From contig CAXIPT010000003.1 of NCBI GenBank assembly GCA_964030475.1, positions 5,261,635-5,325,634 on the forward strand: a stretch of 64,000 nucleotides of DNA, read 5' to 3'. The position numbers were made by a program, and so were the translations under genes. Under the pieces are notes generated by a model. The model ran no database searches, was not told where the DNA came from, and saw only the letters and a program-made list of their open reading frames with translations. This DNA comes from Tethya wilhelma. Taxonomy: Eukaryota; Porifera; Demospongiae; Tethyida; Tethyidae. Below, in pieces: positions 29,340 through 55,439 of the stretch (its first letter is position 1; the number at the start of each line of letters is the position of its first letter).

Positions 29340-29953
29340 ATGGCGGATAAAGACAAACATAGAATTGTATGCATAATTATAAATTAAGTCTGTCTCATAA
29401 CTTAGTGTTTGCAAATCTGATTTGCAAGTAGACTGTGTGTTTGATCTCAGTATAATTTGTAGTGTTATGTTATTTTTTTCCTCCTTCAATGCTATGGATG
29501 TCGATTTGAATCACCCAGGCCCAGAAAGTAAGTCATTACTGTTAAAGTACTATCTCTGTTGTAACATGTGTGTTGTTCACTTTTCTCTTTCAATGCTCTG
29601 CGGATGTCGATTTAAATCACCCAGGAAGTAAGTCATTACTGTTAAAGTACTATCTTTGTAATAACGTGTGTGTTGTTCACTTTTCTCCTTCAATGCTCTG
29701 TGGATGTCGATTTGAATCACCCAGCTTGTAAGTCATTACTGTTAAAGTACTATCTCTGTAGTAACGTGTTGTTCACTTTTCCTCCTTCAATGCTCTGCGG
29801 ATGTCGATTTGAATCACCCAGCGGGTAAGTCATTACTGTTAAAGTACGATCTCTGTAGTAACGTGTGTGTTGTTCACTTTTCTCCTTAAATGCTCTGCGA
29901 ATGTCGATTTGAATCCTCCAGTCTGTAAGTAATTACTGTTAAAGTACTATCTC
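29340..29953 (+). CDS. Roc-COR gene A: ATG exon and start of microexon array (truncated by N 29954)
   Basis: Candidate first coding exon 29340-29366, ATGGCGGATAAAGAC.. (MADKDKHRI), 27 nt, phase 0, donor GTATGC. It is homologous to first exons at 33345 and 43347. Five array units follow, with predicted 3-nt exons at 29525 (AAA), 29625 (GAA), 29725 (CTT), 29822 (CGG) and 29922 (TCT), each as AG-NNN-GTAAGT. For the first unit a 9-nt exon from 29519 is an alternative. The N at 29954 cuts the gene before any GTPase exon. Without RNA evidence the exon calls are inference. Confidence 0.5.
29511..29953 (+). repeat. Microexon array A (5 units of about 100 bp)
   Basis: Each unit: GTAAGTCATTACTGTTAAAG, CTCTGTAGTAAC (branch-point-like), a pyrimidine tract (TTCACTTTTCTCC), then ATTTGAATCACCCAG. 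The three bases between CAG and GTAAGT vary while flanks do not. Confidence 0.85.
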
Positions 29954-29954
29954 N

Positions 29955-30172
29955 GGAGGAGGAGAAGAAGAGGATGGTGATATGATGACCGCCGATTGAC
30001 TCATCAGACCGTGCTGTCTTCTAGCTCTCAAGGCACGCACTGGATTCCCACATATTACTTGACTCATGCCTATAAATATATACATTAAATTTTGTATTTG
30101 TGAAGATAAATTATAGCTAGCGTTTTCTGCAGGTCTTGCTTTGAACATTATTGATTAAATCACAGTAGGAAC

Positions 30173-30236
<64 letters not shown>

Positions 30237-30733
30237 ACACTCACCATGTGTCAATTCACTGCTGTCATCTTTACCCACCAGCAGTGGTGGAGTAACACTC
30301 CTAGTCCTAGAGGCTCCACCACTGGGAGCTGTCACTGGTCTCACTGGAGATATCACCTCTGTCACTTCAGGTTCAAACAGCTCAGAAAGTTGGCTCAGCT
30401 GTGGACCACGTTTAATGGTGCTCTGAAGAATATCCAGGTCTTTGCCCATCCCAGCTTCACTCAGTGCAAACACTGAACTGGTGGAAGAAAGACCGTGGTC
30501 TTCATTGGGTTTCTTGCCCACCTCGTCAGTCATGAGAGTATCATCGAGTGTCTGCAACTTGGGAATTGCCTTTTTGATGGCATTGCGATAGCTGATCTCA
30601 CTGCTGTCCTGTGGTGTGCATGAATTAGAGTACAGAGTTTAGCCATAGAAAATATACACAGGCTACATATAGGAGCTCTGAAGTATACCACTCGACCATG
30701 CATTGAGTGCCTACCTACTTAAGGGTCATGCAA

Positions 30734-30775
<42 letters not shown>

Positions 30776-31979: not shown

Positions 31980-32059
31980 TACTGTATGAAGACTTTTGCT
32001 GTCGTACTCTTTTGTTTATTAGAAGTATGCTGACTTAGCATTATGACGTTGTCGCAGTG

Positions 32060-33195
32060 AATAATGTCCCCCCGTGAATTTTGTCCCCCCGGACATAATT
32101 CACTAGTGAATAATGTCCCCCCGGACATTATTCACTAGTGAATATTGTCCCCCTTAGTGAATAATGTCCCCCCCTCCAAAAGTATACTAAAGAGCTCTGG
32201 CATAGATAAAACAGTCTCAACACTCTTGCCAGCGTTTTTAGCCAGCAGCCACTGCAGCGCTGTGCACCATGCACCCTACTAAGCAATCTTAGCCCCTCCC
32301 GCTTATTGTGCAGCAACTATTAATTTTGTGAGCTAGGCCGCCGGGCTAACATTTCAAACTTTGTTTGGAGGGAGGGCAGGTAGTACTGAAGCTTATAGCC
32401 TACAAACTATTACAATGTCATGCTGCAGGTAATTTGGACCTTGTCCGAGTTTCAGGCCTTCCTAGCTGCGTAGCTGACTAAGCTGAGCCTATAGCTATAG
32501 CTATAGCTTTAACTATAGAGCGGTTGCACTTACGTCATCGAATTTTAATAACTATTAATAAATAGCTATAATTAATTCTATAAATTTATCATGGTGAGTT
32601 TAGCTCAGATTTCAAATTTCAGAGCTTGATTACCTATAGATTATTTTATAAAAATTCTCAAAGTTGGCATTTTAAGTATTGATGGCATTGACGTGTGGCA
32701 AATTTTGCCACACGTCAATGGCATTAATACAAAAATACCAACTTTCAAAAATTTATATAAAATAATCTACTTTGAGTTAAGCCTTCAAACTTGAAATATG
32801 AACTATTTAGAAGGTCACAATTGTCTGGAATTTTTTGCAGCTCAATCCAAGCAAGTTTTAATGGGTGGGCGTGGCTGATGACGTCACGTGCAACCGGAGC
32901 TAGCTAGCTATATATATAGATCTATAGAGCGTTTGCATTTACGTATTAGTTTGGGAGGGGGGACAAAATTCACTAGTGAATTTTGTCCCCCCTTGAAAAA
33001 TACTGTTTTCTTACCATTGCCATTATTTGGCATCATTTGGAAGGGGGGACATTATTCACTGTACTGAGGGGGGACAATATTCACTAGTAAATAATGACCG
33101 GGGGGACAAAATTCACTAGTGAATAATGTCCAGGGGGACAAAATTCTCTAGTGAATAATGTACGGGGGGACAATATGAGGGGGGACATCCCACAC
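32060..33195. mobile_element. Foldback element with inverted terminal arrays of GTGAATAATGTCCCCCC
   Basis: The left array (32060-32175) has about five AATAATGTCCCCCC or AATTTTGTCCCCC motifs. The right array (32955-33195) has the reverse complement GGGGGGACAAAATTCACTAG many times. CACTAGTG palindromes join adjacent motifs. The central variable bases alternate ATAAT/ATTTT/ATATT. Inside are a palindrome at 32685-32722 (GACGTGTGGCA / TGCCACACGTC) and AT-rich sequence. No protein frame. It lies between the LRRC56 start and Roc-COR gene B. Foldback transposon is the best guess. Confidence 0.7.
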
Positions 33196-33344
33196 TAGGA
33201 CGTACACCCCTGAGCGCCAGCGCGCGGTGGTGTGCGTTATTTAGAATAATAATACGGTCCATTGTAGATTGTATTCATTTGTATAATTGTGAGGACATGA
33301 TCATGTGATGTCATATCTTTGAAAAGACATGGAAACTCAAGTAT

Positions 33345-36300
33345 ATGGCGGATAAAGACGAAGTCTATAGAATTGTATGCATAATTATAAATTTAAGCCT
33401 GTCTCGTAACTTAGTGTTAGCAAATCTAATTTGCAAGTAGACTGTGTTTGAATTGAAAAATAAACGGGGATATTAATAGCTATAAGACCTGACCTGTACT
33501 AGTATAAATTATCTCAGTATTGTATAGTGTTATGTTATTTTTTTTCTCCTCCGATGCTCTGTGAATGCCTATTGTTAAAGTACTATCTCTGTAGTAACAT
33601 ATGTGTTGTTCACTTTTTTCTTTCAATGCTCTGCGGATGTCGATAGATCACCCAGAAAGTAAGTCATTACTGTTAAAGTACTATCTCTGTAGTAACGCGT
33701 ATGTGTTGTTCACTTTTTCTCCTTCAATACTCTGTGGATGTCGATTTAAATCACCCAGTCTGTAAGTCATTACTGTTAAAGTACTATTTCTGTATAGTAA
33801 GGTGTATGTTGTTCACTTTTCTCCTTTAATGCTTTGCGGATGTCGATTTGAATCACCCAGAAAGTAAGTCATTACTGTTAAAGTACTATCTCTGTAGTAA
33901 CGCGTATGTGTTGTTCACTTTTCCTCCTTCATTACTCTGCGGATGTCGATTTAAATCACCCAGTCTGTAAGTCATTACTGTTAAAGTACTATTTCTGTAG
34001 TAAGGTGTATGTTGTTCACTTTTCTCCTTTAATGCTTTGCGGATGTTGATTTAAATCACCCAGGCTGTAAGTCATTACTGTTAAAGTACTATTTCTGTAG
34101 TAACGTGTATGTTGTTCACTTTTCTCCTTTAATGCTTTGCGGATGTCGATTTGAATCACCCAGGAAGTAAGTCATTACTGATAATGTACTATCTCTGTAG
34201 TAACGTGTGTGTTGTTCACTTTTCTCCTTCAATGCTCTGCGGATGTCAATTTGAATCACCCAGCTTGTAAGTGATTACTGTTAAAGTACTATCTCTGTAG
34301 TAACGTGTGTGTTGTTCACTTTTCTCCTTCAATGCTCTGCGGATGTCGATTTGAATCACCCAGTTTGTAAGTCATTACTGTTAAAGTACTATCTCTGTAG
34401 TAACGTGTGTGTGTTGTTCACTTTTCCTCCTTCAATACTCTATGGATGTCAATTTGAATCACCCAGGAAGTAAGTCATTACTGTTAAAGTACTATCTCTG
34501 TAGTAATGCGCGTGTGTTGTTCACTTTTCTCCTTTAATGCTCTGCGGATGTCAATTTGAATCACCCAGGAAGTAAGTCATTACTGTTAAAGTACTATCTC
34601 TGTAGTAACGTGTGTGTTGTTCACTTTTCCTCCTTCAATGCTCTGCGGATGTCGATTTGAATCACCCAGTGGGTAAGTCATTACTGTTAAAGTACTATAT
34701 TTGTAGTAACGTGTGTGTTCACTTTTCCTCCTTCAATCCTCTGCGCATGTCGATTTGAATCACCCAGTTTGTAAGTCATTACTGTTAAAGTACTATATTT
34801 GTAGTAACGTGTGTGTTCACTTTTCCTCCTTCAATGCTCTGCGCATGTCGATTTGAATCATCTAGCAGGTTAGTCATTACTGTTAAAATACTATTTCTGT
34901 AGTAACGTGTATGTTGTTCACTTTTCTCCTTCAATGCTCTGCGGATGTTGATTTAAATCACCCAGCGGGTAAGTCATTACTGTTAAAGTATATATTTCTG
35001 TAGTAACGTGTATGTTGTTCACTTTCCTCCTTCAATGCTCTGCGGATGTTGATTTGAATCATTCAGACGGTATGTCATTATCATTAAAGTACTAACTCTG
35101 TAGTAATGTGTGTGTTGTTCACTTTTTTTCCTTCAATGCTCTGTGGATGTCGATTTGAATCACCCAGCAAGTAAGTCATTACTGTTAAAGTACTAACTCT
35201 GTAGTAATGTGTGTGTTGTTCACTTTTCCTCCTTCAATGCTCTGCGGATGTCGATTTGAATCACCCAGCGGGTAAGTCATTACTGTTAAAGTGCTATCTC
35301 TGTAGTAACGTGTGTGTTGTTCACTTTTCCTCCTTCAATGCTCTGCGGATGTCGATTTGAATCACCCAGCCTGTAAGTCATTACTGTTAAAGTGCTATCT
35401 CTGTAGTAACGTGTATGTTGTTCACTTTTCTCCTTCAATGCTCTGCGGATGTCGATTTGAATAACCCAGCAAAGAGAAATCCAAAAAGGTTTTTTTTTTT
35501 TAAAGATTTGATTATATTCTTGTGTTTGTGTCAATGATTTTACAGCTGACTACAGGAAGGCTCTACAGTTTGGTAAAGTCCTTGTAGCCTATGCACGAGT
35601 GATGCTCATTGGTCCAGGAGGTGTTGGGAAGAGCAGCTTTCTACTTGGCATTGCTAACAAGTTCTTGGGAGCAGCAACCAGCACCCAACTAGCTGAGATA
35701 TCAACATTCAAGTCATCTGGATCTCAACATGCCAGCATTACTTCCCCTCTCTCATGGAGTAGGGCAAGTGGATCCCCTGAGAGCCCTTGGATGGAAGTGA
35801 CTGAGGAAGATGAGACAAATGAAATTGTAGGACTGATCCAATTAGTAGCCAATTCAACTAAAGGTCAAAAGTCTTCACGCTTTGTTAAAATGCTCCAAAC
35901 TGTAGATAGTGGTGTCTTGCAGCCTGAGCATATTTCTCTGAGTGGTACTACAAGTACCTACCAAAGTGAAGTCATGAAAACAGTTGAAGAAATCCTCTTT
36001 CTTGCCCTCCTACAAGCCAAGCAACAGCCCCATGCTCAAGCACCAGAATCTGAGGTGATGATGCATGTGTGGGACTGTGGTGGTCAACCCATCTTCCTAG
36101 ATGCCCTGCCACCATTCCTGACATCAAGGACAATGTTCCTGTTAATGTTTGATGCCAGCAAAAAGCTGCAAGATAAATGTGTAGCTACTTCTCATCAAAA
36201 GGGCCAAATTTTGAAAAAAGAAATTTACCAAGATCTCACTACTATAGAGCTGATGCTACAGTGGATGGCATCAATTCATGCCAATCTTGCTAACCAAGAT

Positions 36301-38727
36301 GTGAAGGGTCGAGTAGTTCAAGATGAACATTGCTCTCCCTGCATTCTCCCCATTGGAACACATGGTGATGACCCCTCTGTCAAATTTCAAAAAGAAGAAA
36401 TATTGAAGGAGCTTAGTTTTCAATGTGAGCAGAAAGCCTTTTCCTATCTTCTCCAGCCTGGTGTGATTGTCGACAATACTACTGCTGGTATGGGTGCTGA
36501 TGAAGACCCAGTGTTCAAAGTGGTTCGCAAAGAGGTGTACAACTTTGCTGAAAGCAATCTGAAAATAGCCACACCTATCACCTGGTTGCTATTTAGAAAG
36601 ATCTTCAAGAAGGTGGCAGTAAACTATCCGATTGTTTCTCTTGAGGAAGCTACAGCTATAGGCCAAGCATGTGGGATTCCAGAAGAAAGCTTTCCAAGTG
36701 TCCTAAAGTTCTACCATGAGCTGGCAGTCTTCTTTCACTACGACCACATTCCAAGTCTCAAGCAGCATGTGATAGCTGATCCACGCTGGCTAATTCAGCA
36801 TCTAGGCAAGATATTAGCCCTAGAAGGCTTTGAGGAGATGAAAGGTTCACCTCTATGGAAGCCACTGAGAGAGAAGGGAATCCTACTGGAGCCCCTCTAC
36901 AAAGCTGTGTGGAAGGGTTGTGGACTACCTCCAGAGTCACTCATCGACCTGCTTGACCACTTCATGCTTCTTTCTCCTATCTCTACCAAGGTTTGTCACC
37001 AATCAGGCCAGGAGTACTTCATTCCTGCTGTTCTGAAGCAATTCAACCCAGACCAAGCTGATCGTGTGCCAGTACCAGCCACTGCTATTTTCAAAGCTGC
37101 TCCACTTCACCTTCTGTTCAACACCTTACAAGTCCCCCCAGGCTTTTTCACTCGCCTCGCCACTTCACTTGCTAAGAATGAAAACACCCACGTTGTTTTT
37201 GACCAGGGAGTTTATCGCAATCGAATCACCATCCTCTATGGAAAGACCGACAATCAAATTGATGAAGTTATCATCACGCAGCTCTCTGCCAGTGTACAAG
37301 TGGAAGTCACTCGGGTGCACCATCGTCAGTCACATGATCCTTTCTTCACCACTGTGTGCCGTGCAGTATTGAAGCTCATCCAAGAATGTTCAGCTTCAAT
37401 TCTTGAGTGGCTACCAGGCATAAAGGTCACCCCAGCGTTTGTTTGTGAGCAGTGCAAGAGACACCAGGTCCCCCAACACTATGTAAAATTCGAATCTTCA
37501 GCTGCCACCACTTCTAGGTTACGATGTGAAAAGTTACAAGTGGTTTTACCAAACCAAGCTCAGCAATTATGGCTGAGGATCTCACCCAAAGAGGAGGTAA
37601 GAAACAGCAACTTTATATAATAACTCTAATTTAAATTATATACATATTTTAAATGCTTATTATTATGTCTTAGGGTGTATGTAGCAACCCACCAACCAAG
37701 CCTGAGCTTGTACAACTTATAAAAGAATTCCCCAAAGAGAAAGTCTCTGATATAGTTGAAAAGTTGGAGATGACCTCTCACCAGCTACCCAAAGATCATA
37801 AGTCCCTTCATGTAGTGTTGACACGATATCTGAAAGATTTGGCCGATCAAGACTTGCACTCTCGATCTCACTTGGTCCACCACTTGAGAAGTATTGGCCT
37901 ACAACAAATTGCAAACAGGTAAATAATTATTATTATGTCCCATTAAAATTGATGAGGTTCTAAAGTCTTTGAATGTATAGGCTGAATTATCAGGAATACT
38001 GCATCTCAGCTGAAGATGGACCTCAGACTTCCCATGATGACCCAGATACAGCTGAAAGGCCAATTCAAGTATGCTAATATATATGTGTATACTATGGTTA
38101 GCAACTACTATGTACTGAATGTTTATGCCTTGCAGGTACCACCGACTACAGCAGACCTTGCAGAGTGTTGTAAAGTAATTGAAGGACAAAACTTCAGTTT
38201 TCTTGCAAGTATTCTAGACGTCTCTGATGCTGAGCTGGATGGTATCTGTTCCAGGCACAAAAATCCTCAGGCACAAGCTTATCATGTCCTCAACTTGTGG
38301 TTCAAGAGATCTACCAGTGACAACAAGAGACAAGACCTTCTCGATGCACTTAAAAATGCCAACTTCGTTGAAGCTGCAAGAAGGTAAATTCTTGTTTGAG
38401 TCATATTTTTTCACTGATTGGATATTATACTTATTATGATCATGTAGGTTAAAGGCTATCGGTAGTAGCTTGAAACCAAGTTTGCCAGACCTCCTCAAGT
38501 ATGTGAAGACAGCCAAATGGCACAGACTGGGAGTGTTTCTCGGTGTTGATGCTTCCAAACTAGAAGCAATTGGCAGAGATAGCAGTGACTCTGAAGATGC
38601 TCTCAGCCGAGTGTTTGAGACGTGGCTACAGACTGAACTGCAACCCACCTGGAAGAAAGTAGTCCAAGCTCTCAAAGATTTGGAACTACAAGTACTTGCT
38701 TCCGAAATTGAAGATAGGTTTTGTTAA
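33345..38727 (+). CDS. Roc-COR GTPase with tandem Death-like domains, gene B (complete)
   Basis: Predicted exons: ATG exon 33345-33374 (MADKDEVYRI); 18 candidate 3-nt exons (33656-35372); 35470-35488 (QREIQK plus one base); 35546-37596; 37674-37918; 37981-38068; 38136-38383; and 38448-38727. Phases match everywhere. Without the microexons it is 986 residues, with all of them 1004. The large exon has a P-loop (GPGGVGKSS), a Ras/Roc-type switch motif (WDCGGQ), a G4-like THGD, and a COR-like region (LKFYHELAVFFHY, DPRWLIQHLGKILA). C-terminal exons give two Death-fold segments (LASILDVSDAELDGIC..; HRLGVFLGVDASKLEAI..FETWLQ). The make-up suggests an innate-immune or cell-death signalling ROCO protein. 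No leucine-rich repeats are seen. Confidence 0.72.
33656..35372 (+). repeat. Microexon array B (18 units)
   Basis: Candidate single-codon exons, phase 0, in order: AAA 33656, TCT 33759, AAA 33861, TCT 33964, GCT 34064, GAA 34164, CTT 34264, TTT 34364, GAA 34467, GAA 34569, TGG 34670, TTT 34768, CAG 34866, CGG 34966, ACG 35067, CAA 35168, CGG 35269, CCT 35370. Each is preceded by AG (almost always CCCAG) and followed by GTAAGT (GTTAGT at 34869, GTATGT at 35070). Units are 98-105 bp. The non-coding part is near-uniform, whereas the three inner bases take twelve values. No stop codon occurs. Confidence 0.85.
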
Positions 38728-39582: not shown

Positions 39583-40774
39583 CAGTTGTACAAGCACCGT
39601 TATCCCAAGCTAGAAGATGTGGTGATGGTGAATGTTCGTTCTATAGCCAAAATGGGAGCATACGTCAACTTACTTGAGTACAAACAACATCGAGGGGATG
39701 ATTATGTTGAGCGAACTGTCCAGAAGACGTATTCGGTCCATCAACAAGCTGGTTCGTATCGGAAGGAACGAGTGTGTGGTGGTCATTAGAGTGGATGAGA
39801 CTAAGGGTACGTTTGCCTTCTTGTGGTGGGGTTGGCTGGAGGAGTGTAATATGGATACCATTTATTGCCCACCCACCCTGAAGCATTGCATCATATAATT
39901 TATACAGTTCCACGTGTCCAACCATCACTGCAGGTGTATTGTGTGTCTCCAGAAGAATACAGAAATGTGTGAAAAATATTCCAATGGAAAATTTGTTAGA
40001 ACAATAATAATTCCTTTCCTCCTGAAACCATTCTCAATCAGTTTTTATTCCATATAGGTGAACAGCATCCTTTCATAATGTGGCCTCCAAGCTGGACTAT
40101 GACAGTGAAGCTCTGGAGAGCTTGTACGAGCGGACTGCATGGAAACTGGAGGAGAAGACTGGTGTCCCAGGTAGCTCATATGACCTCTTCAAGAAGGCTG
40201 TGGTGTAAGTTGGAGAAACTGTATTCCCTGATTGTAAGTGGACTGTACAATACATTGCTAAGATGATCAGAGCTTTTGTTTCTCCATTTCAGAGATCCCA
40301 GTGTTCTTGACGAGTGTGCATTCACTGGTAACCAAGAGAGAGAGACCTTGGTGGCTAACATTAGACACAGACTAACACCACACCCTGTCAAGATCAGAGC
40401 AGGCAAGTTTAATGTACTTGTCTCGCAAAAGTAAGTCTATAGTACTTTGCAGAGTGTCAGGTTTATCATTATCCAGGCTACCTGGCTGTTTCTAATTTAC
40501 TTTAATTTGTGCATGCAGACATTGAGGTGTCGTGCTATGGCTATGAGATCAATCTTAAAGCTCCGCCCCAGTATGTCATGACAACCACCACTCTGGATCG
40601 GACAGAGGGTATTGCTAAGTTGAACACCGCCATTTAAGTGATCAGGGATGGAGGTCAGTTTACTCCTGTAATATTGCTTTTAATTCTTTTTCTGTTTTAG
40701 ATGGAAGTCAGCTTACCCTTCATGATAATTAAAATTAAAAGCTTTGTTACCCAGGCTGTTTCCTTAATGGCTTC

Positions 40775-42600: not shown

Positions 42601-42780
42601 AGGAAGGGAAGATCTAGTAGTAGAACAAGACTATAGAGTTGTTGGCGAAGTTTTAAAATTGGATTTCTTGTATATATTTTTAATTGTCATGCTTGCTAGC
42701 CAGTTACATAGTTGATTTTTGTGCTAGAACTCTCCCTTGAGGAGGCGGAGAAGAAGAAAACGATATCAAAATTGCAATAT

Positions 42781-42926
<146 letters not shown>

Positions 42927-43083
42927 TTGTTGAGCAATTGCAAATGCATATTATATTTACAAGACTACAGTAAAGTAATTATAAAATGAAATGTAGCCTC
43001 CGTGTACTAAGTAAAAAAAAAAGCATGAATTGTTGTCAGTACACGTATGCCAGACACACATTGAATGTGCTAGTGTATCAGTA

Positions 43084-43084
<1 letters not shown>

Positions 43085-43124
<40 letters not shown>

Positions 43125-43148
43125 CACACACACACACTCACACACTCA
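43085..43148. repeat. CA microsatellite
   Basis: (CA)n tract acting as the sequence just before the last exon of the eIF2-alpha copy. Confidence 0.95.
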
Positions 43149-43346
43149 ACAGCCAAAAGTTGTAACAGATGTTGAAGATGAAGAACTGAGGAAACAGATG
43201 GAGGAGTTGCAGCTTGCCAATCAAGAAGTAGCAGGAGGTGATGATACCTCAAACCAAGAAGTGGACATGAATGATTAATAGTATTGATGTAATTGTATTC
43301 ATTTATGGGGTCATGTGATGTCACAAATTTGGAAAGACAATTAGCT

Positions 43347-44728
43347 ATGGCGGATAAAGATAAAGACAAAGCTGTAAGCATAGATAAAATTAATGTCTAG
43401 TAACTTAGTTTTTGCAAATCTGATTTGCAAGTATAGATAGTTTGAACGCCAGAATAAACTGGTTAATGATAACTAAACACTAGCTAAGACCTGTACTATA
43501 TCTAAGTGTGACGGTAATATTATTTAATATATGTATATACATGTTATTTTTTCCCCCTCCCATTCAATGCTGTGTAAATGTCGGGTTTAAAAAATTCAGA
43601 AAGTAAGTCTTACTGTTCGGAGTACTATCTCTGTTGTAACGTGTGTTGTTCACTTTTGCTCCTTTAATGCTCTGTGAATCACGTGACGATTTGAATCACC
43701 AAGCCTGTAAGTCATTACTGTAAGAGTACTATCTCTGTAGTAATGTGTGTATTGTTCACTTTTTCCTCCTTAAATGCTCTGTGAATGTCGATTTGAATCA
43801 CCCAGTCTGTAAGTCATTACTGTTAGAGTACTATCTCTGTAGTATTAATGTGTGTATTGTTCACTTTTTCCTCCTTAAATGCTCTGTGTATGTCGATTTG
43901 AATCACCCAGCCTGTAAGTCATTACTGTACAAGTACTATCTCTGTAGTAATGTGTCTGTTCTTCACTTTTTCCTCCATAAATGCTCTGTGGATGTCGATT
44001 TGAATCACCCAGTCTGTAAGTCATTACTGTAAGAGTACTATCTCTGTAGTAATGTGTCTGTTCTTCACTTTTCCCTCCATAAATGCTCTGTGGATGTCGA
44101 TTTGAATCACCCAGTCTGTAAGTCATTACTGTAAGAGTACTATCTCTGTAGTAATGTGTCTGTTCTTCACTTTTCCTCCTTAAATGCTCTGCGGATGTCG
44201 ATTTAAACCACCCAGCATGTAAGTCATTACTGTAAGAGTACCATTTCTGTAGTAATGTGTCTGTTCTTCACTTTTCCCTCCTTAAATGCTCTGTGGATGT
44301 CGATTTGAATCACCCAGCTTGTAAGTCATTACTGTAAGAGTACTATCTCTGTAGTAATGTGTCTGTTCTTCATTTTCCCTCCTTAAATGCACTGTGGATG
44401 TCGATTTGAATCACACAGATTGTAAGTCATTACTGTTAGAATACTATCTCTGTAGTAATGTGTGTATTGTTCACTTTTTCCCCCATTAATGCTCTGTGGA
44501 TGGTGATTTAAAACCACCCAGCGTGTAAGTTATTACTGTAAGATCTACCTATCTCTATAGTAATGTGTGTATTGTTCACTTTTTTCCTTCATAAATGCTT
44601 TGTTGATGTCGATTTGAATCACCCAGCGTGTAAGTCATTACTGTAAGAGTACTATCTCTGTAGCCTCGTCCCCAGGCTCCCCTTTGACCTTTCACTCACG
44701 GAAAGGAGAAGGGGAGCCTGGTATCCGA
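43347..44728 (+). CDS. Roc-COR gene C: ATG exon and microexon array (cut by N 44729)
   Basis: ATG exon 43347-43373 (MADKDKDKA), 27 nt, phase 0, donor GTAAGC, after the promoter motif at 43311-43323. Eleven candidate 3-nt exons: AAA 43600, CCT 43704, TCT 43806, CCT 43911, TCT 44013, TCT 44115, CAT 44216, CTT 44318, ATT 44419, CGT 44522, CGT 44627. The last unit is broken by a small palindromic insert (44665-44727, CCAGGCTCCCC / GGGGAGCCTGG) and the N. The penultimate exon and the first two thirds of the GTPase exon are missing. Confidence 0.5.
43600..44640 (+). repeat. Microexon array C (11 units)
   Basis: Units of 100-105 bp as in arrays A and B but with subfamily differences (TTACTGTAAGAGTACTATC; TGTCTGTTCTTCACTTTTCCCTCC). 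This shows local homogenisation within each array while the inner codon still varies. Confidence 0.85.
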
Positions 44729-44729
44729 N

Positions 44730-47607
44730 GGAGATGAAAGGTTCACCTCTGTGGAAGCCACTGAGAGAGAAGGGAATCCTACTGGAGCCCCTCTACAAAG
44801 CTGTGTGGAAGGGTTGTGGGCTACCTCCAGAGTCACTCATTCACCTGCTTGACCACTTCATGCTTCTTTCTCCTATCTCTACCAAAGTCTGCAGCTTTCC
44901 AGGTCAGGAGTACTTTATTCCTGCAGTTCTAAAGCAATTCAACCCAGACCAAGACCACAATGTCACAGTGCCATCCACTGCAATTTTCACAGCTGCTCCA
45001 CTTCACCTTCTGTTCAACACCTTACAAGTCCCCCCAGGCTTTTTCACTCGCCTCGCCACTTCACTTGCCAAGAATGAGAACACCCACGTTGTTTTCGACC
45101 AGGGAGTTTATCGCAATCGAATCACCATCCTCTATGGAAAAGCAAACAGTAGAATTGACAAAGTTGTCATCACACAGCTCTCCTCCAGCATACAAGTGGA
45201 AGTCACTCGGGTGCACCATCGTCAGTCACATAGCCCCTTCTTCACCACTATGTGTCGTGAAGTGTTAAAGCTCATCCAAGAATGTTCAGCCTCAATACTG
45301 GAGTGGCTACCAGGTATAACCGTCACCCCAGCATTTATATGTGAGCAGTGCAAAGACCAGGCCAAACACTTTGTGAAGTTTGAAGCAGCAGCTACAACCC
45401 TCTCACTTTTGCATTGTCAGCAATTGCAAGAAGCTTTACTAAACCAGGCTCAGCAATTTTGGCTGAAGATCTCACCCAAAGAAGAGGTATAATGCTATGC
45501 TTTTGTAAGGGTAACTATTAATGCACAGTGATTGATACATCCAGGGATTAAGTGGAAACCTACCAAGCAAGACTGAGCTTGCACAACTTGTCAAGGAATT
45601 CCCAAAAGAGAGAATCCATGACATCATTGAGAAGTTGGAGATGACTGCTCACCAGCTACCTGAAGATCATAACTCTCTCCAAGTAGTGCTGACACGATAC
45701 ACAACAGATATGGCTGATCAAGGGTTACATGTTCGATCTCACTTGGTACATCACTTGAGAAGCATGGAGTTACTACAGATTGCAAACAAGTAATAATTTG
45801 ATTTATTAATTTGTAATTATTGTTGAGATTCTATCATTAAAAAATAACTACAGGCTAAAGTACCAAGAATACTGTACCTCAGTTGCTGGTGAAAGTGTAG
45901 CACCCCTTGGTTACTCCACTACTTTGCAACCATCACAAGTAATGATAATTATAGTAGTATATAGTAAAAATTTCATAAAAATGAGCAGTGTAGGAATGGG
46001 CAGTGCTGTAAAAAGTAAGGAAACAAGGCATGCATGTCGCAATCAGTTCGGCACATGACTACTTCATTTTCATTTTAAATTCCTCATGCATCCTGTCAAA
46101 TGAAATATTGATGTGATTCAAACAATACTGTACATGACGGTTGATATGATAATGGTTTGAAGTGATAGATGTGCAACCAATCAGTATGTTGGCTCCAAGC
46201 AAGCAACCTAGGCAATGCTGTTATGGTGATTAACTCTCAAAACCCTTAGTTTAAATTGAAACATTTGGGCTTTAAAATGAAGTAGTCATGTGCCGAACTG
46301 ATTGCGACATGCATGCCTTGTTTCCTTACTTTTTACAGCACTGCCCATTCCTACACTGCTCATTTTTATGAAATTTTTACTATACTTGTTCATTCACTTT
46401 TTTAAACAGTAAAATCTGAAAGCTATCAGAGACTGGTTAGTCCCTACAAAAAACTTGAGTAGCAACAGTGCAGTGGTCAGTTTGCTAATGCGCATGCGCA
46501 TTTAATGCCACGTGGATAGATAGCGACCTTTGAACTCTACCTATAAAAGATGGCTGCATTGAAGTGTATGAATTTATATACAAGTTTTAAAAGCTTTCTA
46601 GCTCTTGTTTTGAAACATTTAGGCAGTAAATGAGTGCTAAAGATCCTAGTTCGGATGAAAAGAAGTTACTTTGTGTGGTCAAAACTAGCTCAACGCCTTC
46701 TGTTTCCCTGGAAATGGTGTTCAAGTAAGTCAGTAAGGAAGGAAGGAAGTAAGTGAGAACAAAAATGCGTGGGCGTAGCTTCTGACTAGCGCTCTCAACG
46801 AGTGCAATAGGAAAGTTTCTGCGAACTTTAGGCTGACAAGCTGTTGGTAATCTGTCTAAGAGAGCTTCTGAGCAAGTTTGGAGGTTTAACATTGTCTTGC
46901 TAGATTTTTATGGTGATAAATATTTTGTATTGTGTCTATGGGACAGTCGGCCCATTCCTACTATACGTACTACCGTACGTATGATAATATAAAGTTGTGA
47001 CCTTTGTTGTTTTCCTCTATAGCTACCACTAACTACAGCAGACCTTGCAACTTGTTCCTGGTTTATTAGTGGACCAAGCCTCCAATTCCTTGCTACCTTG
47101 CTGAATGTCTCTGATGATGAGTTAGATGGAATCTGTTCAAAATATAAGTACCCTCAGGGACAAGCTTATCAAGTACTGGACTTGTGGTACAAGAGATCTA
47201 CCAGCCACAGCAAGAGACAAGATCTCATTGATGCACTTGAAAATGCCAACTTCTTTGAAGCTGCAAGACGGTAGTACAATAATATTACATCCCTCTTTGT
47301 AAGCTTATAATTGATGCAATCCTTTTCACACAGATTGAAAGTTGAAAACAGAAAGCCAGGTTTGCCACACCTCCTCAAGTATGTGAAGACGGCCAAATGG
47401 CACAGACTGGGAGTGTTTCTTGGTGTTGATGCTTCCAAACTAGAAGCAATTTGCAGAGAAGCCGGTGACTCTGAAGATGCTCTCAGTCGAGTGTTTGAGA
47501 CATGGCTACAGATTGAACTGCAACCCACCTGGAAGAAAGTAGTCCAAGCTCTCAAAGATTTAGAACTACAAGTACTTGCTTCTGAAATTGAAGATAGATT
47601 TTGTTAA
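44730..47607 (+). CDS. Roc-COR/Death gene C or C', 3' part
   Basis: Exons 44730-45486 (open at the N), 45545-45789, 45854-45938, 47023-47270 and 47334-47607. Exon lengths 245, 85 and 248 are the same as in gene E. It begins inside the COR region (EMKGSPLWKPLREKG) and continues to both Death-like domains (LATLLNVSDDELDGIC; HRLGVFLGVDASKLEAI). All frames are open, so the portion present looks functional. The intron 45939-47022 holds T1 copy 3. Whether it belongs to the array at 43600 depends on what the N hides. Confidence 0.7.
45945..46985. mobile_element. Transposon family T1, copy 3
   Basis: Foldback pair at about 45959-46060 and 46280-46395, TGCGCATGCGCA near 46492, CACGTG near 46509, GGAAGGAAGG near 46738, and end motif GCCCATTCCTA near 46950. 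Inserted in the intron before the first Death-like domain of gene C. Confidence 0.75.
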
Positions 47608-48079: not shown

Positions 48080-48261
48080 ATGTCTGGAGTAAGTTGCACA
48101 TTACTGTATAGAGATGTCTAACCCTTTGGGAAACTATACAACTTTCATTCTCTCCCAATACAAATTATGCTTGATGGATTTGAATCAATCAGTATGTAAA
48201 AGCAGAGGTACGTCCAAGTCACTTTTTACTGTACGATTGCTAGTATGCACGGTCGTAATGT

Positions 48262-48326
<65 letters not shown>

Positions 48327-50723
48327 GTACAAAATTATTCCTTGGAATGACAATTTGTACAGCCTGTAAGTTATTACAAAGTGTGCATATCAGTTTTTTT
48401 ATTATTGTGGTGTGTATGTACATGGCTTTTGTCTATTGTGGTGCTCTGTAGTTTGTGCCACCAGTTTCAAGCACTCAGCCTGTAAGTCATCACTGTTAGG
48501 TATAGTGATGTCTATAATATTATTTCTGTTGTGATTGTGTGGTATGTTCATCTTTTCTCCCTACATGTGAATATATCTGTTCGAATCACCTACTAGCCGG
48601 AAGTAAGTCATTGCATGACTAATAGTATACTTTATAGAGTCACAATACATTTCTCCTATACACCAGGATCCGAGTGCAATTTGCACTATCATGTACTAAT
48701 CATGTAATCAAGCATGATTTTTAATTAGTAATACCCTCTGTGGTTTTAGTAATGCCTCTGTGGTTTTAGTAATTGCATTCCCCGCATATAATTAAAAAAT
48801 CTTGTAAACTAGCATTGATTTTGTGTTTATCCCTCTATAAAATAAGGCTATTGGCTAATTTTGTGTCTGTTCCTCCATAAAATGATACTATTAGCAGATA
48901 ACCACACAATAATTATTCCTCGTACAATTACGGAATTAATAGCACTCTAGCTATCCGAATCATGTGGTTACCAATACATTATAACAATATTATAGTATTA
49001 TCATCATGTCCCTTACTCCCCACCTTTTCAGGAAGTAAGTTATATGATGTAACCTCTATCAACTGTGATGCGACTATTCTCTCTTTCCNTCATTATATAT
49101 AACTTATTAGCCAATAATTATTGACATTGTGTCTTTCTCTCCTTCAAATGCATGGGGGTACATGCTGGTTATAAAGGAAGTAAGTGTATTCTGTGCCAAG
49201 TTTGATGCTTTATCTTTGATTGTTTTATCCCTTCTGTGGCCCTGATGCTAACTTGAACCACATAGGATGTAAGTCAAAAAACAAAAACAAAAAAACAACA
49301 ACTTGATTTGGTGTTCCAGTTGTAATGTGTCTAAATTTTCTTTACTTTCTTTCCTCATACATGTGAACATGCACTGATTTTGACACATGATATATATCCC
49401 AGTTTGTAAGTTTATGAGACTCAGTGTTGTGTGCTATATTGTGATTTGGTTTTCACTAACTATAATGTATATTCTTCCTGGTTTACTGCTCTGCGGATCT
49501 CAATCTCAATATACAGCTAGTAGGTTGAATACTTCAAGTACTGTAAATCTGTTGTATAATGTGTCTATATACTGTTCATTTTCCTTTGAAATTCATGAAT
49601 TCTCTCTGGATACCAATTTGGATCACCTAGTTTGTGAGTCATTAAAGTTATGTTATTCTACTTATGTTAGTGTTTTAATTTTATTTAATCCTCAGGAAGT
49701 AAGTCTTTGCTACATCAGAATTTCTGCTCTGATCTTTAATGTATCTCTTTACTTTCCTGATGCTATATATTTGTGAATACTACAATTTGAATCATCCAGG
49801 AAGTAAGTGATTATAATTATTATACTGTTAATTTAAAAATGTGATTAACTTCCCCACTCCCTACCTCCAATCCCTTCGGATCATTTTGGTGATTTAAATT
49901 TGATCATCGGTTTCAGGAAGTAAGTCAATAATTACATGTTAATTATTTATTTCGCTATAGTTACTTGTATCTTTGTTTGCTTTTCTTCCTTGACATTATG
50001 TTTTGCCAATTTGAATCAACTGGCACATGGTCCACTGTACAGTATGTAAGTTATTTACAATTTACACTGTCTCTATTGTAATATTATAATAATATATTAT
50101 GGTAACTGTTATGTGTGTATGTTTTATATAATTTATGTATATCTGGTACGTGTGTTTGGATACGAATTTGAATCATAATTCGTGCAGGAAGTAAGTTGTT
50201 GTGATACTTTGGTATAGTATATATGTCTCTTGTTTACTTATTCTCTCTTTATTGCTCTATGGCTGCCAATTAGACCACCCAGACTGTAAGTCATTTCAGT
50301 TAATATAATTGTAGTATGATTTTCCCCCTGTGTTTCCCTTCCTCTCCAGCATGTAAGTTAAGAGCATTCTGTTTTGTATGTTTATAAAACATCTATTGAC
50401 ATTCCTCCCTTTGATGTTGATTTGAATCACCCACTGGCAATGCAGCCTGTAAGTCGTGTATTACATGCGCCTATTTTAATATACGTGTCTTTGCTACATA
50501 AAAATTGCATGCTCTCTCTATACCATCAGATACTTGCTCAAGATGATGAGAAACAAAAAGGTATAATTTATTATAATTATTATGTGCTTGGTTTGCCTTG
50601 TTTAGTCTGTCTTGTTTGCATGCCTTTGTTTTGGTGGTGCATAGCTGACTACATGAAGGCTCTACAGTTTGGTAAAGTCCTTGTAGCCTATGCACGAGTG
50701 ATGCTCATTGGTCCAGGAGGTGT
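48080..50723 (+). CDS. Roc-COR gene D: diverged microexon array and start of GTPase exon (cut by N 50724)
   Basis: Possible ATG exons: 48080-48088 (ATGTCTGGA, donor GTAAGT) or 47751-47804 (18 codons, donor GTAAGT). Both end in phase 0; neither resembles the MADK exons, so this is uncertain. Candidate microexons follow to 50448, then 50530-50560 (31 nt, ILAQDDEKQK plus one base), then the GTPase exon from 50645 (ADYMKALQFGKVL..LIGPGG), which stops at the N. The first 79 bases of that exon are identical to gene E. Confidence 0.5.
48193..50448 (+). repeat. Microexon array D (about 18 diverged units)
   Basis: Core AG-NNN-GTAAGT (or close) at TAT 48193, CCT 48363, CCT 48479, CCGGAA 48597 (six bases), GAA 49032, GAA 49177, GAT 49266, TTT 49403, CTA 49517, TTT 49631, GAA 49696, GAA 49800, GAA 49917, TAT 50043, GAA 50188, ACT 50283, CAT 50350, CCT 50446. 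Spacing is irregular (65 to about 430 bp) and the intervening sequence is no longer recognisably repeated, yet the splice-like core and its three-base (once six-base) content persist. No stop codon. Confidence 0.7.
48259..48322. repeat. CT microsatellite
   Basis: (CT)n of about 64 bp inside a predicted intron of array D, where it would extend the pyrimidine tract before the candidate exon at 48363. Confidence 0.95.
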
Positions 50724-50724
50724 N

Positions 50725-52110
50725 AGTCATTACTGTTAAAGTACTATCTCTGTAGTAACGTGTGTGTTGTTCACTTTTTTCCTTCAATGCTCTGCGGATG
50801 TTGATTTGAATCACCCAGCTTGTAAGTCATTACTGTTAAAGTACTATCTCTGTAGTAATGTGTGTGTTGTTCACTTTTTCTCCTTCAATGCCCTGCGAAT
50901 GTCGATTATAATTACCCAGATTGTAAGTTATTACTGTTAAAGTACTATCTCTGTAGTAATATGTGTGTTGTTCACTTTTCTCCTTCAATGCTCTGCGGAT
51001 GTCGATTTGAATCACCCAGGTTGTAAGTCATTACTTTAAGAGTACTATCTCTGTAGTAATGTGTGTATTGTTCACTTTTTTCTCCTTAAATGCTCTGTGG
51101 ATGTCGACTTGAATCACCCAGTCTGTAAGTCATTACTGTAAGAGTACTATCTCTGTAGTAATGTGTGTATTCACTTTTCCCACCATAAATGCTCTGTGGA
51201 TGTCGATTTGAATTACCCAGGATGTAAGTCATTACTATAAGAGTACTATCAGTATCTCTGTAGTAATGTGTGTATTGTTCACTTTTTTCTCCTTAAATGC
51301 TCTGTGGATGTCGATTTGAATCACCCAGTCTGTAAGTTATTACTTTAAGAGTACTATCTTTGTAGTAATGTGTGTATTATTCACTTCTCCCTCCATAAAT
51401 GCTCCGTGGATGTCGATTTGAATCACCCAGGTTGTAAGTCATTACTGTAACAGTATTATCTCTTGTAGTAATATGTGCATGTGTTGTTCACTTTTCCCTC
51501 CTTAAATGCTCTGTGGATGTCGATTTGAATCACCCAGCCTGTAAGTCATTACTTTAAGAGTACTATCTCTGTAGTAATGTGTGTATTGTTCACTTTTCCC
51601 TCCTTAAATGCTCTGTGGATGTCGATTCGAATCACCCAGGATGTAAGTCATTAATTACTGTAAGAGTACTACCGTACTGGCGCGTTATTAGGCCCACTTC
51701 ACGCATAAGCGCACACTTGAATATAAGTGTCTTCCTTGACACTTCTTTATTAAGTGCTATGATGATTTTCACTATTGACACAGGGAAAGGATCAGTTTCT
51801 GGACATGTAGATTCTAAGACAACACTTCACCCACAAAAGGAGTCCACCCGCTCTTGCAGACAAGTTATGCTCAAATAACGCTCTCCAAAAATTCGTTTGG
51901 CCTCGCTTTGAAACGTAGCTCACGTGGCAGTGTATCTCGTTATTACGCGCATTTCACTGTTAAGTGCCTATTTTCTTCCTGTGGAAATATAAGCGTATGT
52001 ACTTAATAACGCACCCATACGGTATCTCTGTAGTAATGTGTCTGTTCTTCACTTTTCCCTCCTTAACTGCATGTTCTGTGGATGTCGATTTGAATCATCC
52101 AGTTTGTAAT
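50725..52110 (+). repeat. Microexon array E (10 units)
   Basis: Candidate codons: CTT 50819, ATT 50920, GTT 51020, TCT 51122, GAT 51221, TCT 51329, GTT 51431, CCT 51538, GAT 51640, TTT 52103. Donors are GTAAGT except GTAATG for the last. A MITE (51672-52022) sits in the intron between the ninth and tenth. Confidence 0.85.
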
Positions 52111-55100
52111 GCTTTCTTAAGTGACTGTTGTTTATTTTTTTACTCATTTGCTACTTTATCATAATTATATAGAATTTATGGAATGAAATTCAACAAGGTA
52201 TGATTATTTTTTAAAGCACTATAAATTAAAGTGTGAATTATACTTAAAATCTAATATTTCGATAATTTTACAGCTGACTACATGAAGGCTCTACAGTTTG
52301 GTAAAGTCCTTGTAGCCTATGCACGAGTGATGCTCATTGGTCCAGGAGGTGTTGGGAAGAGCAGTTTTCTACTTGGCCTTGAAAACAAGCTCTTGGGAGC
52401 AGCCACCAGCACCCAACTAGCTGAGATGTCAACATTCAAGCTATCTGGATCTCAACAAGCAAGCCTTCTGTCTTGGAGTAAGGCAAGTGGATCCCCTGAG
52501 AGCCCTTGGATGGAAGTGACTGAGGATGATGAGACAAATGAAATTGTAGGACTGATTCAACTAGTAGCCAATGCCACTAAAGGTCAAAAGTCTTCTTCAC
52601 GCTTTGTTGAAATATTTCAAAGTAGTACTAACTTGCAGCCTAAGCTTGTTTCTCAAGGCAGTGCAGCTAATACCTACCAAAGTGAAGTCATGAAAACAGT
52701 GGAAGAAATTCTCTCTCGTGCCATCCAGCAAGCAAAGCAGTATCCATATGTTCAAGCACAAGAGTCTGAGGTGATGATGCATGTGTGGGACTGTGGGGGT
52801 CAACCTGTCTTCCTAGATGTCCTCCCACCATTCCTGACGTCAAGGTCAATGTTCCTGTTGATGTTTGATGCCAGCAAAAAGCTACAAGACAAATGTGTAG
52901 CTACTTCTCATCAAAAGGGCCAAATTTTGAAAGAAGAAGTTTACCGAGATCTCACGACCATAGAGCTGATGCTACAATGGATGGCATCCATTCATGCTAA
53001 TCTTGCTATTAGATACGTGAAGGTTAATAGTGATCCATGCATTCTCCCAATTGGAACACATGGTGATGACCCTTCTGTTGAATCAAAAAAAGAAGAAATA
53101 TTGAGGGAGCTTAGTTCTCAATGTGAGCAGAAAGCGTTTTCCTATCTACTCCAACGTGGCGTTATTGTCGACAATACTACTGCTGGTATGGGTGAAGATG
53201 AGGATCCGGTATTCAAAGAGGTCCGTACAAATGTGTACAACTTTGCCGAGAACAATCTCAAAGTAGCCACACCTATCACATGGGTGCTATTCAGGAAGAT
53301 CTTCAAGAAGGTGGCAGTAAACCATCCTATTATTTCTCTCAAGAAGGCCACAGCTATAGGCCAAGCATGTGGGATTCCAGAAGAAAGCTTCCTAAGTGTT
53401 TTGAAGTTCTACCATGAGCTGGCAGTCTTCTTTCACTATGCCCACATTCCAAGTCTCAAGCATCATGTGATAGCTGATCCACGCTGGCTAATTCACCATC
53501 TAGGCAAGATATTAGCCCTAGAAGGCTTTGAGGAGATGAAAGGTTCACCTCTGTGGAAGCCACTGAGAGATAAGGGAATCCTACTGGAGCCCCTCTACAA
53601 AGCTGTGTGGAAGGGTTGTGGGCTACCTCCAGAGTCACTCATTCACCTGCTTGACCACTTCATGCTTCTTTCTCCTATCTCTACCAAGGTCTGCAGCTTT
53701 CCAGGTCAGGAGTACTTTATTCCTGCAGTTCTGAAGCAATTCAACCCAGACCAAGACCACAATGTCATGGTTCCAGCCACTACTATTTTCACAGCTGCTC
53801 CACTTCACCTTCTGTTCAACACTTTGCAAGTACCCCCAGGCTTTTTCACTCGCCTCGCCACTTCACTTGCTAAGAATGAGAACACCCATGTTGTTTTTGA
53901 CCAGGGAGTTTATCGCAATCGAATCACCATCCTCTATGGAAAGGCCCACAGTAAAATTGACAAGGTTGTCATCACACAGCTCTCTTCAAGCATACAAGTG
54001 GAAGTCACTCGAGTGCACCATCGTCAGTCACATGACCCCTTCTTCACCACTGTGTGTCGTGAAGTGTTAAAACTCATCGAAGAATGTTCTGCCTCAATTC
54101 TTGAGTGGCTACCAGGCATAATGGTCACCCCAGCATTTGCTTGTGAGCAGTGCAAGACCCAACCCAAGCACTTTGTGAAATTCAAGTCTTCTGCCACAAC
54201 CCTTTCCCTTCTACATTGTGAGAAACTACAGATAGTTGTCCTAAATCAATCACAGCACTTTTGGCTGAAGATTTCACCAAAGGAAGAGGTAAGCTATAAC
54301 AATAATAATATCACAAACGTGTTAAAAATCAAAATAATTTGTAGGGCCTATGTGGTAACCCACCAAGCAATTTTGAGCTCCTTCAACTTGTGAAGGAAAT
54401 ACCAAGTTATGCTACCCAAGACTTGGTTGAAAAATTGGAAATGACAGCTTATAGACAACCCAAAGATCATAACTCTCTCCATGTACTGCTTACGCGATTC
54501 ACAAGAGATATGGGAGAGCAAGAATTGCACACTCAATCTCACTTGGTACACCACCTGAGAAGTATTGGACTCCCGGATATAGCAGACAAGTAATCACAAA
54601 TTAGATTATGCACTAGCTGACTTGTCATTGATCATTGTACATCTGTTCATAGACTGAAGTATCAGGAATTCTGTACTACAGCTGAAGATACATCTCCCCA
54701 TGAATCTGGATCATCTCTGACTTTGAGGCTAACACAAGTATGTATGTCTATAATTATGGTTAAAATTAATTTTACCACTCATAGCACTACAATGTCTAAT
54801 TATTCTCTGCTTGATACAGCTACCACTAACTACAACCGACCTTGCAGATTGTTCCAAATTAATTGGAGGGCAAAACTTCGGTTTTCTTGCAAGTATGCTG
54901 GATGTCTCTGATGCTGAACTGGATGGTATCTGTTCCAGGCACAAGAATCCTCAGGCACGAGCTTATCATGTCCTCAACTTGTGGTACAAGAGATCCACCA
55001 GTGACAACAAGAGACAAAATCTTCTCGATGCACTTGAAAATGCTAACTTCTTTGAAGCTACAAGAAGGTTTGTTGTTTGAATGCTTGTACTAATGGTGTG

Positions 55101-55439
55101 TTTACCTCAGGTATTTATGCCACGGTCATGATTGTTGGTGCTTACTTCCCTCATTTCATTTTCAGACTGAAAGCCAAGAACAAAAAGCCAAGCCTACCAG
55201 AGCTCCTCAAACATGTAGACACAGCTAAGTGGCACAGACTGGGAGTGTTTCTTGGTATTGGTGTCTCCAAACTTGATGCGCTTCGCAGAGATACCAGTGA
55301 CTCTGAAGATGCTCTCAGTCGAGTGTTTGAGATGTGGCTACAGACTGAACGGCAACCCACCTGGAAGAAAGTAGTCCAAGCTCTTAATAATTTGGAACTG
55401 CATGTACTTGCCACTGAAATTGAAGATAGATTTTGTTAG
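50725..55439 (+). CDS. Roc-COR GTPase with tandem Death-like domains, gene E (5' cut by N)
   Basis: Ten candidate 3-nt exons (50819-52105), then 52173-52197 (25 nt, NLWNEIQQ plus one base), 52274-54288, 54345-54589, 54653-54737, 54820-55067 and 55166-55439. Counting from MKALQFGKVL in the large exon: P-loop GPGGVGKSS about residues 20-28, WDCGGQ about 169-174, G4-like THGD about 259-262, COR-like region about 300-480 (LKFYHELAVFFHY, ADPRWLIHHLGKILALEGF). The two Death-like domains follow in separate exons (LASMLDVSDAELDGIC; HRLGVFLGIGVSKLDAL). The first ATG exon is lost at the N. It is highly similar to gene B with scattered substitutions, so it is a recent paralogue. Confidence 0.72.
51672..52022. 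mobile_element. MITE with CCGTA termini inside array E
   Basis: Starts CCGTACTGGCGCGTTATTA and ends AATAACGCACCCATACGG, an inverted pair, flanked by TA on both sides. The interrupted repeat unit (GAGTACTA | TCTCTGTAG) reads through if it is removed. Confidence 0.8.

Follow-up and report, generated by a model that had tools for sequence, protein, structure and literature searches.

Protein variation in the micro-exon genes (MEGs) of Schistosoma arises through alternative splicing. According to PMC10526429, 10 to 20 very short exons make up most of such a gene; the exons are mostly 15 bp long (6–81 bp in the text, 3–81 in the abstract), the introns span 0.1–5 kb and the products are secreted. 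Adjacent microexons of 5 and 12 nucleotides (nt) are described in a rice gene (PMC8831610), an isolated 3-nt microexon in Drosophila homothorax (PMC7392893) and a 1-nt exon, spliced constitutively, in Arabidopsis APC11 (PMC4674806). In recursive splicing, zero-nucleotide AG/GT sites leave no bases behind; they are described mainly for very long introns (PMC13149111). Here we describe a 64,000-nt stretch of the genome of the sponge Tethya wilhelma (G000:C3:5261635-5325634, hereafter the window; genome of 124.6 Mb in 204 contigs), which holds five arrays of putative exons of one codon each in members of a Roc-COR/Death gene family. The reading of these units as single-codon exons is strongly supported by array structure, constraint on the splice-site pair, frame, lack of stop codons, recurrence in paralogues and codon divergence, all drawn from sequence.

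Like the MEGs, the genes described here form one family with tiny exons in long series, most of them frame-neutral. They differ from MEGs in that the units are single codons, the introns are about 100 nt long and the product is a Roc-COR-Death GTPase; nor do the microexons form the bulk of the gene, as the GTPase exon alone is about 2 kb. Described short runs of adjacent microexons contain two or three exons of differing sizes, whereas runs of 5 to 49 one-codon exons were found here; and the 1–3-nt exons of homothorax and APC11 are isolated, whereas those of the arrays are consecutive. The units resemble the ratchet points of recursive splicing in that an acceptor stands just before a GTAAGT donor, which implies stepwise removal; unlike zero-nucleotide sites they would retain three coding bases per step, and AG lies at 0 in none of 31 sites considered below. 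Roc and COR-A (copies 2 and 5) and two Death domains (copy 2) are shared with ROCO proteins, from which the N-terminal tail encoded by a single-codon exon array sets these genes apart. Among the matches listed from the open-licence PMC literature we recognised no long runs of one-codon exons; short runs were found (RPS24, three microexons).

A pattern count of AG-NNN-GTAAGT in the window gave 56 matches on the plus strand and two on the minus strand, with all but one of the 56 lying in the five arrays (5, 16, 11, 14 and 9 respectively). When units with weaker donors (GTTAGT, GTATGT, GTAAAA, GTAGGT, GTGAGT and GTAATG) were included, the arrays comprised 61 single-codon units (5, 18, 11, 17 and 10 in arrays 1–5); unit 62 is a 6-nt exon, CCGGAA, inside array 4, so that the figure of about 62 units in a preliminary description of this DNA holds good. 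Unit counts for arrays 1, 3 and 5 are minima, given single N letters near their ends (29954, 44729 and 50724); where gene copies break off, these Ns look like collapsed assembly gaps that leave the three arrays incomplete.

The preliminary description had the units in tandem, each with a GTAAGT donor and usually a CCCAG acceptor. Arrays 1, 2, 3 and 5 are indeed tandem repeats of units of about 100 nt, but the introns of array 4 have a mean identity of 0.758, close to the 0.738 of shuffled sequence (11 introns aligned); short remnants of a common unit such as TTTGAATCA are still recognisable there by eye. Most donors are GTAAGT, the exceptions being six of the 61 units, and CCCAG is typical of the tandem arrays only. 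Tandem repetition is what a minisatellite with cryptic splice signals, bypassed by transcripts, would produce, and in arrays 1, 2, 3 and 5 splice-site conservation proves little alone. Array 4 is informative here: its stretch (48080–50580) contains 14 matches, where 5000 first-order resamplings averaged 0.039 and never exceeded 2, and AG stands exactly at −3 for 14 of its 16 GTAAGT sites (at −6 for one), by comparison with only one of 21 GTAAGT in the rest of the window outside the arrays.

To extend this, 31 GTAAGT sites were taken from stretches chosen around four less repetitive arrays: array 4 of the window and those designated C8c, C3b and C2 on other contigs or elsewhere on C3. The nearest upstream AG was at 3 nt for 26 of these; the other five had it at 6 (one), 28 (one) or 1 nt (three), the last being AGA exons in C3b that are ambiguous between 3 and 1 nt. 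AG was at −3 for all five sites in the array stretch of each of C8c, C3b and C2 (C2 has seven GTAAGT in the 4 kb examined, five of them in the array-bearing stretch). Intron identity is near the shuffled level in array 4, C8c and C2, but not in C3b (0.839 versus 0.734). As the 3-nt spacing of the splice sites has been kept while their surroundings decayed, purifying selection on the pair of AG and GT is suggested; the same spacing amid near-shuffled introns in array 4, C8c and C2 argues against the minisatellite.

The triplets also behave as coding sequence. In the phase-0 frame there are no stop codons among 195 codons, a count that leaves out 6-nt exons and C2, whereas the shifted frames contain 3 of 182 and 16 of 182. 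The expected number was 6.6 from position-specific composition and 4.9 from within-array permutation (P(0)=0.0032); these probabilities are approximate, units within arrays being related, and TAG might be avoided for splicing reasons. The last small exons between array and GTPase exon measure 19, 25, 28, 28, 28, 31, 31, 34, 37 and 46 nt, so that all ten examined are of length 3n+1, and each leads into (A/T/D)DY..AL; for the 34- and 46-nt cases (C8d and C8c) the splice sites were selected with frame in mind, and an eleventh copy follows a gap. One residue per exon with no change of frame, as initially proposed, agrees with these data, and on sequence, constraint and homology evidence the units appear to be microexons, a class limited to 30 nt or less, with functional splice sites on either side of a very short exon. 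The absence of in-frame stops likewise speaks against a minisatellite.

A further possibility is that the units are recursive splicing sites with a regulatory purpose, the three bases being incidental. AG closely followed by GTAAGT does resemble the AG/GT ratchet points, which are mainly described for very long introns (PMC13149111), whereas the introns here are about 100 nt. Were both sites used productively, the mRNA would retain the triplet; the spacing is for the most part 3 exactly and not 0, and the codons diversify and avoid stops; we regard this possibility as extremely improbable.

In the genes of the window an ATG exon is followed by the array, the last small exon, a GTPase exon encoding Roc and COR-A, and further exons that include two Death domains. 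Pfam scores were 32.6 and 35.7 bits for Roc (cut-off 27) and 50.1 and 49.4 bits for COR-A (cut-off 35.3) in copies 2 and 5, with Roc followed by COR as in ROCO proteins, and two Death domains were found when three downstream exons of copy 2 were scanned; the assignment to a Roc-COR/Death family is borne out. The suggestion that the product is an immune-type receptor gained no backing from Pfam, which in the GTPase exons and the three downstream exons of copy 2 returned Roc, COR-A and Death, ligand-binding or membrane parts not having been specifically sought. Copy 2, which is free of gaps, reads as a single open frame, MADKDEVYRI-KSKSAELFEEWFQRTQRP-QREIQK-ADYRKALQFGKVL... The arrays had been placed between a small ATG exon and the GTPase exon: phase-0 ATG exons of 27, 30 and 27 nt, with the donors chosen, do precede arrays 1–3, but array 4 has only a weak candidate (MSG, 48080–48088). 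The start of copy 5 falls outside the window, and arrays 1 and 3 end before any GTPase start.

Evidence from outside this gene family comes from a kinase gene on contig C2 (Pkinase, Pfam; L082), which has five consecutive AG-NNN-GTAAGT exons on the minus strand (C2:11502398-11502907), 118–142 nt apart, with an intron identity of 0.729 versus 0.754 when shuffled (four introns). The exons AAA, TAT, CTG, TTT and AAT would give, when spliced, ...ACNWHSG-K-Y-L-F-N-RWSCCYKLEEDSTGC, and the kinase carries a BTK/CHORD-like zinc motif. P0124, a protein predicted from a 975-nt contig and the sole match among 341 candidates, is uninterrupted at this point (...ACLWHPG-K-H-I-F-N-RWSCCYKTEASTPGC) and aligns without gaps over 153 residues with 54% identity. 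Only one of the 120 orders of the residues reaches the BLOSUM62 score of KYLFN against KHIFN, as do 10–11 per million random five-residue sets. Five residues likewise occupy this place in a weak match (E 0.40) from another part of the genome, which reads HPG-ALLKG-KWSCC. Homology shows that this run of five putative one-codon exons is read in order, and the C2 codons are presumably always included because the conserved stretch needs them. Two kinase-tail relatives, P0121 and P0122, have two identical exon stretches in common; P0121, with no introns between its exons, has K after HPG where P0122 runs into donor-like sequence. P0121 looks like a partly spliced transcript with the first one-codon exon joined and the next intron present, and P0122 looks genomic. 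As the C2 triplets spell out a conserved protein stretch, bypassed cryptic splice signals are already contradicted for C2, and as an explanation of the arrays in general a minisatellite is very improbable.

The arrays are not confined to the window, and the phenomenon is thus more extensive than the preliminary description had it. A pattern of three successive units with gaps of 74–104 nt occurs at 81 places genome-wide (window 30, C1 26, C8 25), the sole control being the reversed pattern, which gave 2 and 6. With gaps of 104–134 nt there were 27 places (reversed 2 and 0), adding C78, C3:9.57 Mb, C2 and one at C8:2.18 Mb; with gaps of 46–76 nt there were none in the genome (reversed 5 and 0). 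A genome-wide control with a 4-nt spacer, AGNNNNGTAAGT, and gaps of 104–134 nt gave 12 places, two in a minisatellite and 10 on C11. The ten on C11 (G000, C11:451340-481984) are AG-NNNN-GTAAGT places at a spacing of about 143 nt, perhaps a tandem array of longer small exons. On C1 the AG is at −3 for 47 of 49 GTAAGT in 8.6 kb, and the unit differs, at roughly 113 nt.

A search of the genome with the GTPase exon returned 11 matches, nine of which have arrays 5' of them: C1, C78, C3:9.57 Mb, three on C8 and three in the window. The six paralogues outside the window share the array layout, mostly with different repeat units; arrays are thus a trait of the Roc-COR gene family, in which the sequence of the unit has been replaced from subfamily to subfamily. 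The other four matches to the ATG-exon pattern (C2 twice, C3:948231 and C6) had no array in the stretches scanned, among them a minus-strand match (L032) that was scanned without being turned round. C8 has three more units, on its minus strand at about C8:41150-41377. No relatives were returned when alignment A1 was used to search viral_contigs and genome_contigs.

Within the arrays, variation is concentrated on the codons, in agreement with the initial impression of variable triplets between near-constant flanks. Across 44 alignable units the entropy of the three codon positions was 1.92, 1.93 and 1.36 bits and that of AG and GT was 0; a second alignment gave 1.93, 1.94 and 1.26 bits, and its 100 flank columns had a median of 0.42 and a maximum of 1.62, with 18 of them exceeding 1. 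Codon positions 1 and 2 were more variable than every flank column, position 3, the last base before the donor, was not. When a tree of 43 tandem units was built from their flanks alone, parsimony required 19, 20 and 10 changes at the three codon columns, compared with a mean of 2.2 and a maximum of 8 for the 94 flank columns. The first two codon positions, the most variable columns of all and set between invariant sites, are a further argument against a minisatellite.

Near-identical units were compared over symmetric flanks of 30+30 nt. For pairs with one flank difference in 60, the difference per codon site was 0.55 in the window (17 pairs), 0.19 on C1 (9), 0.58 on C8 (32) and 0.56 on C78 (6); for pairs with identical flanks it was 0.50 (4 pairs), 0.00 (6), 0.20 (10) and 0.56 (3) respectively, the pairs not being independent. 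C1 is the exception: there the codons agree in all six pairs with identical flanks, as expected of recent block duplications. Taken as ratios, the values for near-identical units would put the renewal of a codon at some 11 to 35 times the pace of the splice flanks around it. Diversifying selection acting on the tail is the simplest reading of the divergence; other possible causes are local hypermutation and selection that opposes codon conversion.

Introner elements are introns inserted as units into uninterrupted exons. A gain of this kind, in which near-identical young introns were placed between the old codons of one exon, would explain why differing codons stand beside near-identical introns, and the C2 stretch, uninterrupted in P0124, is split codon by codon. 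In the window arrays the correlation of flank distances was 0.47 across the codon and 0.33 between the halves of one intron. With introns split into quarters the overall values were −0.01 to 0.06 inside an intron as opposed to 0.40 across a codon; arrays 3 and 5 gave 0.24–0.63 and 0.52, so that parts of one intron there do share a history, as insertion would have it. Codon differences and flank distance were nearly uncorrelated (−0.01 and 0.13). Since the flank correlation across the codon is at least as high as that within the intron, it is whole units, exon included, that seem to have been duplicated, and not introns that were inserted between old codons. Insertion after every codon in one phase would moreover need a mechanism, and we know of none; introner-like gain is quite improbable.

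Taking these results together, we consider it likely that the units are single-codon coding exons spliced stepwise, codon by codon, with most or all of the codons included, so as to encode an N-terminal tail on Roc-COR-Death GTPases. Introns of about 100 nt would be removed one after another between the phase-0 ATG exon and the 3n+1-nt last small exon, most likely by intron definition rather than by recognition of each exon, as two spliceosome assemblies would hardly fit one 3-nt exon. Once the upstream intron had gone, the codon would be fused to the longer 5' exon and the next GTAAGT could act as an ordinary 5' splice site; this would amount to ratchet (recursive) splicing with three bases retained per step. 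Most or all codons are probably included, which would make the N-terminal tail anything from a few residues to about 50 in length. The arrays may grow and shrink by duplication of intron-exon units, after which the single codon would diverge faster than its flanks through diversifying selection or selection against homogenisation. The order of intron removal, the level of inclusion, selection as the cause of divergence and the function of the tail are what we infer. We read the tail, which over all 195 codons is rich in P, R, D, E and S and has no cysteine, as a flexible, fast-changing extension on a Death-domain GTPase, and can only speculate about a role in recognition.

Several observations weigh against this interpretation. 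Splicing of the Roc-COR members is deduced from their DNA, and the C2 case stands on one homologue, P0124, the relative P0121 being without the rest of the motif. The Pfam BTK model gave 22.9 bits with the five codons, 22.0 with none, 14.3–17.7 with part of them and 23.5 with the order scrambled, and the match to ITK was slightly better without the codons (E 0.0013 versus 0.0037). Beyond a first K in arrays 1–3, the paralogues show no conservation of the tail sequence. When the array-2 tail was compared with three uninterrupted N-termini of the family, four of 15 tests fell below 0.05, all of them with P0062 (lowest 0.003). Both GTPase copies on C160 are without an array in the stretch examined, one of them following an N gap and the other copy, and no GTPase match was found in the 10 kb examined around C8a, an array of 28 units followed by a gap N at C8:21509. 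For the C1 gene the 5' end (C1:15726700-15727000) resisted modelling.

As proof of inclusion the BTK/CHORD Pfam and ITK scores were tried and rejected, being equivocal, the scrambled order having scored equally well. Homology of the array-2 tail to the uninterrupted N-termini was set aside, as P0062 alone was positive and no test against the other two fell below 0.05. At the start of the C1 gene there is, by eye, a possible phase-0 first exon of 81 nt (MPQTTHDSPSEILSTTYLDLTALNLNK); the possible exon after it terminates in a stop codon.

If, instead, each exon were optional, inclusion being regulated or stochastic, a single gene could equip an intracellular switch protein with a great many different N-terminal tails, a device for diversity at the level of RNA. 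Because every unit is frame-neutral, the frame is kept by any subset; the codons are very diverse (44 codons for 19 amino acids); and array length varies from 5 to 49 units between paralogues, several counts being cut by gaps, which makes length seem weakly constrained. Artificially shortened microexons in other genes are often skipped, according to PMC4674806. Against this, most donors are a perfect GTAAGT, all five codons of the C2 kinase are needed to match P0124, and constitutive use would account at least equally well for the long-term upkeep of the splice sites. Combinatorial inclusion, as first envisaged for this locus, is possible but not supported, since the need of the C2 kinase for five codons in order points to constitutive inclusion; we hold it unlikely.

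Features of the window are collected in Table 1. In array 5 about 350 bp of unrelated sequence, perhaps a mobile element, splits a unit that resumes after it (about 51673–52021, by eye). The end of an eIF2-alpha gene lies just 5' of the first ATG exon (28801–29250; Pfam EIF_2_alpha at 28801–29061), and pieces of a second copy, at about 39600–43279 by eye, just 5' of ATG exon 3; the gene end and the array gene seem to have been duplicated as one block. Ahead of copy 2 there are short G/C-run repeats (GGGGGGACAATATTCACTAGTGAAT...) in both orientations (32040–32170 and 33050–33190). Two similar elements of about 370–450 bp that resemble miniature inverted-repeat transposable elements, with long inverted ends (AAAATTTATAAAAATGAGAAGTGTAGGAATGGGCAGTG...), were seen by eye at about 42240–42610 and 45950–46400. 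A laminin EGF domain (Pfam) is also encoded in the window.

Table 1. Predicted exons and arrays of the Roc-COR/Death gene copies, in window coordinates; the last row gives an array on contig C8 in genome coordinates.
Feature	Position	Strand	Remarks
ATG exon, copy 1	29340..29366	+	MADKDKHRI, 27 nt, phase 0; donor GTATGC
Array 1	29525..29924	+	5 putative single-codon exons (K E L R S); ends near gap N 29954
ATG exon, copy 2	33345..33374	+	MADKDEVYRI, 30 nt, phase 0
Array 2	33656..35372	+	18 putative single-codon exons (KSKSAELFEEWFQRTQRP); no internal gap
Last small exon, copy 2	35470..35488	+	19 nt, QREIQK + 1 base
GTPase exon, copy 2	35546..37596	+	ADYRKALQFGKVL..., Roc + COR-A
Downstream exons, copy 2	37674..38727	+	include two Death domains
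ATG exon, copy 3	43347..43373	+	MADKDKDKA, 27 nt, phase 0
Array 3	43600..44629	+	11 putative single-codon exons (KPSPSSHLIRR); ends before gap N 44729
Candidate ATG exon, copy 4	48080..48088	+	MSG, phase 0, donor GTAAGT; weak
Array 4	48193..50448	+	17 putative single-codon exons (YPPEEDFLFEEEYETHP, 6-nt exon excluded); introns strongly diverged
Two-codon exon in array 4	48597..48602	+	6 nt, CCGGAA
Last small exon, copy 4	50530..50560	+	31 nt, ILAQDDEKQK + 1 base
GTPase exon start, copy 4	50645..50723	+	cut by gap N 50724
Array 5	50819..52105	+	10 putative single-codon exons (LIVSDSVPDF); 5' part beyond gap; insertion ~51673-52021
Last small exon, copy 5	52173..52197	+	25 nt, NLWNEIQQ + 1 base
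GTPase exon, copy 5	52274..54288	+	Roc + COR-A
Array C8a (L068)	G000:C8:16565-20860		28 units

In the arrays exon size is pushed down to a single codon, in long series of consecutive exons that exon definition could hardly manage, and they offer a natural test system for the stepwise splicing of tiny exons. Such exons tend to escape gene finders and standard RNA-seq aligners, and other genes may hide them. A single codon isolated between intron flanks is also a direct clock, within the gene, for diversifying change. If inclusion varies, the arrays would be a repertoire generator acting at the RNA level on a Death-domain switch in an animal. It is conceivable, though we doubt it, that duplication of units, fast renewal of codons and variable inclusion of up to about 49 exons together form a diversification device at the level of the codon, giving each cell or individual a different tail; if true, this would be a repertoire for recognition or self-marking made through splicing and not through DNA rearrangement.

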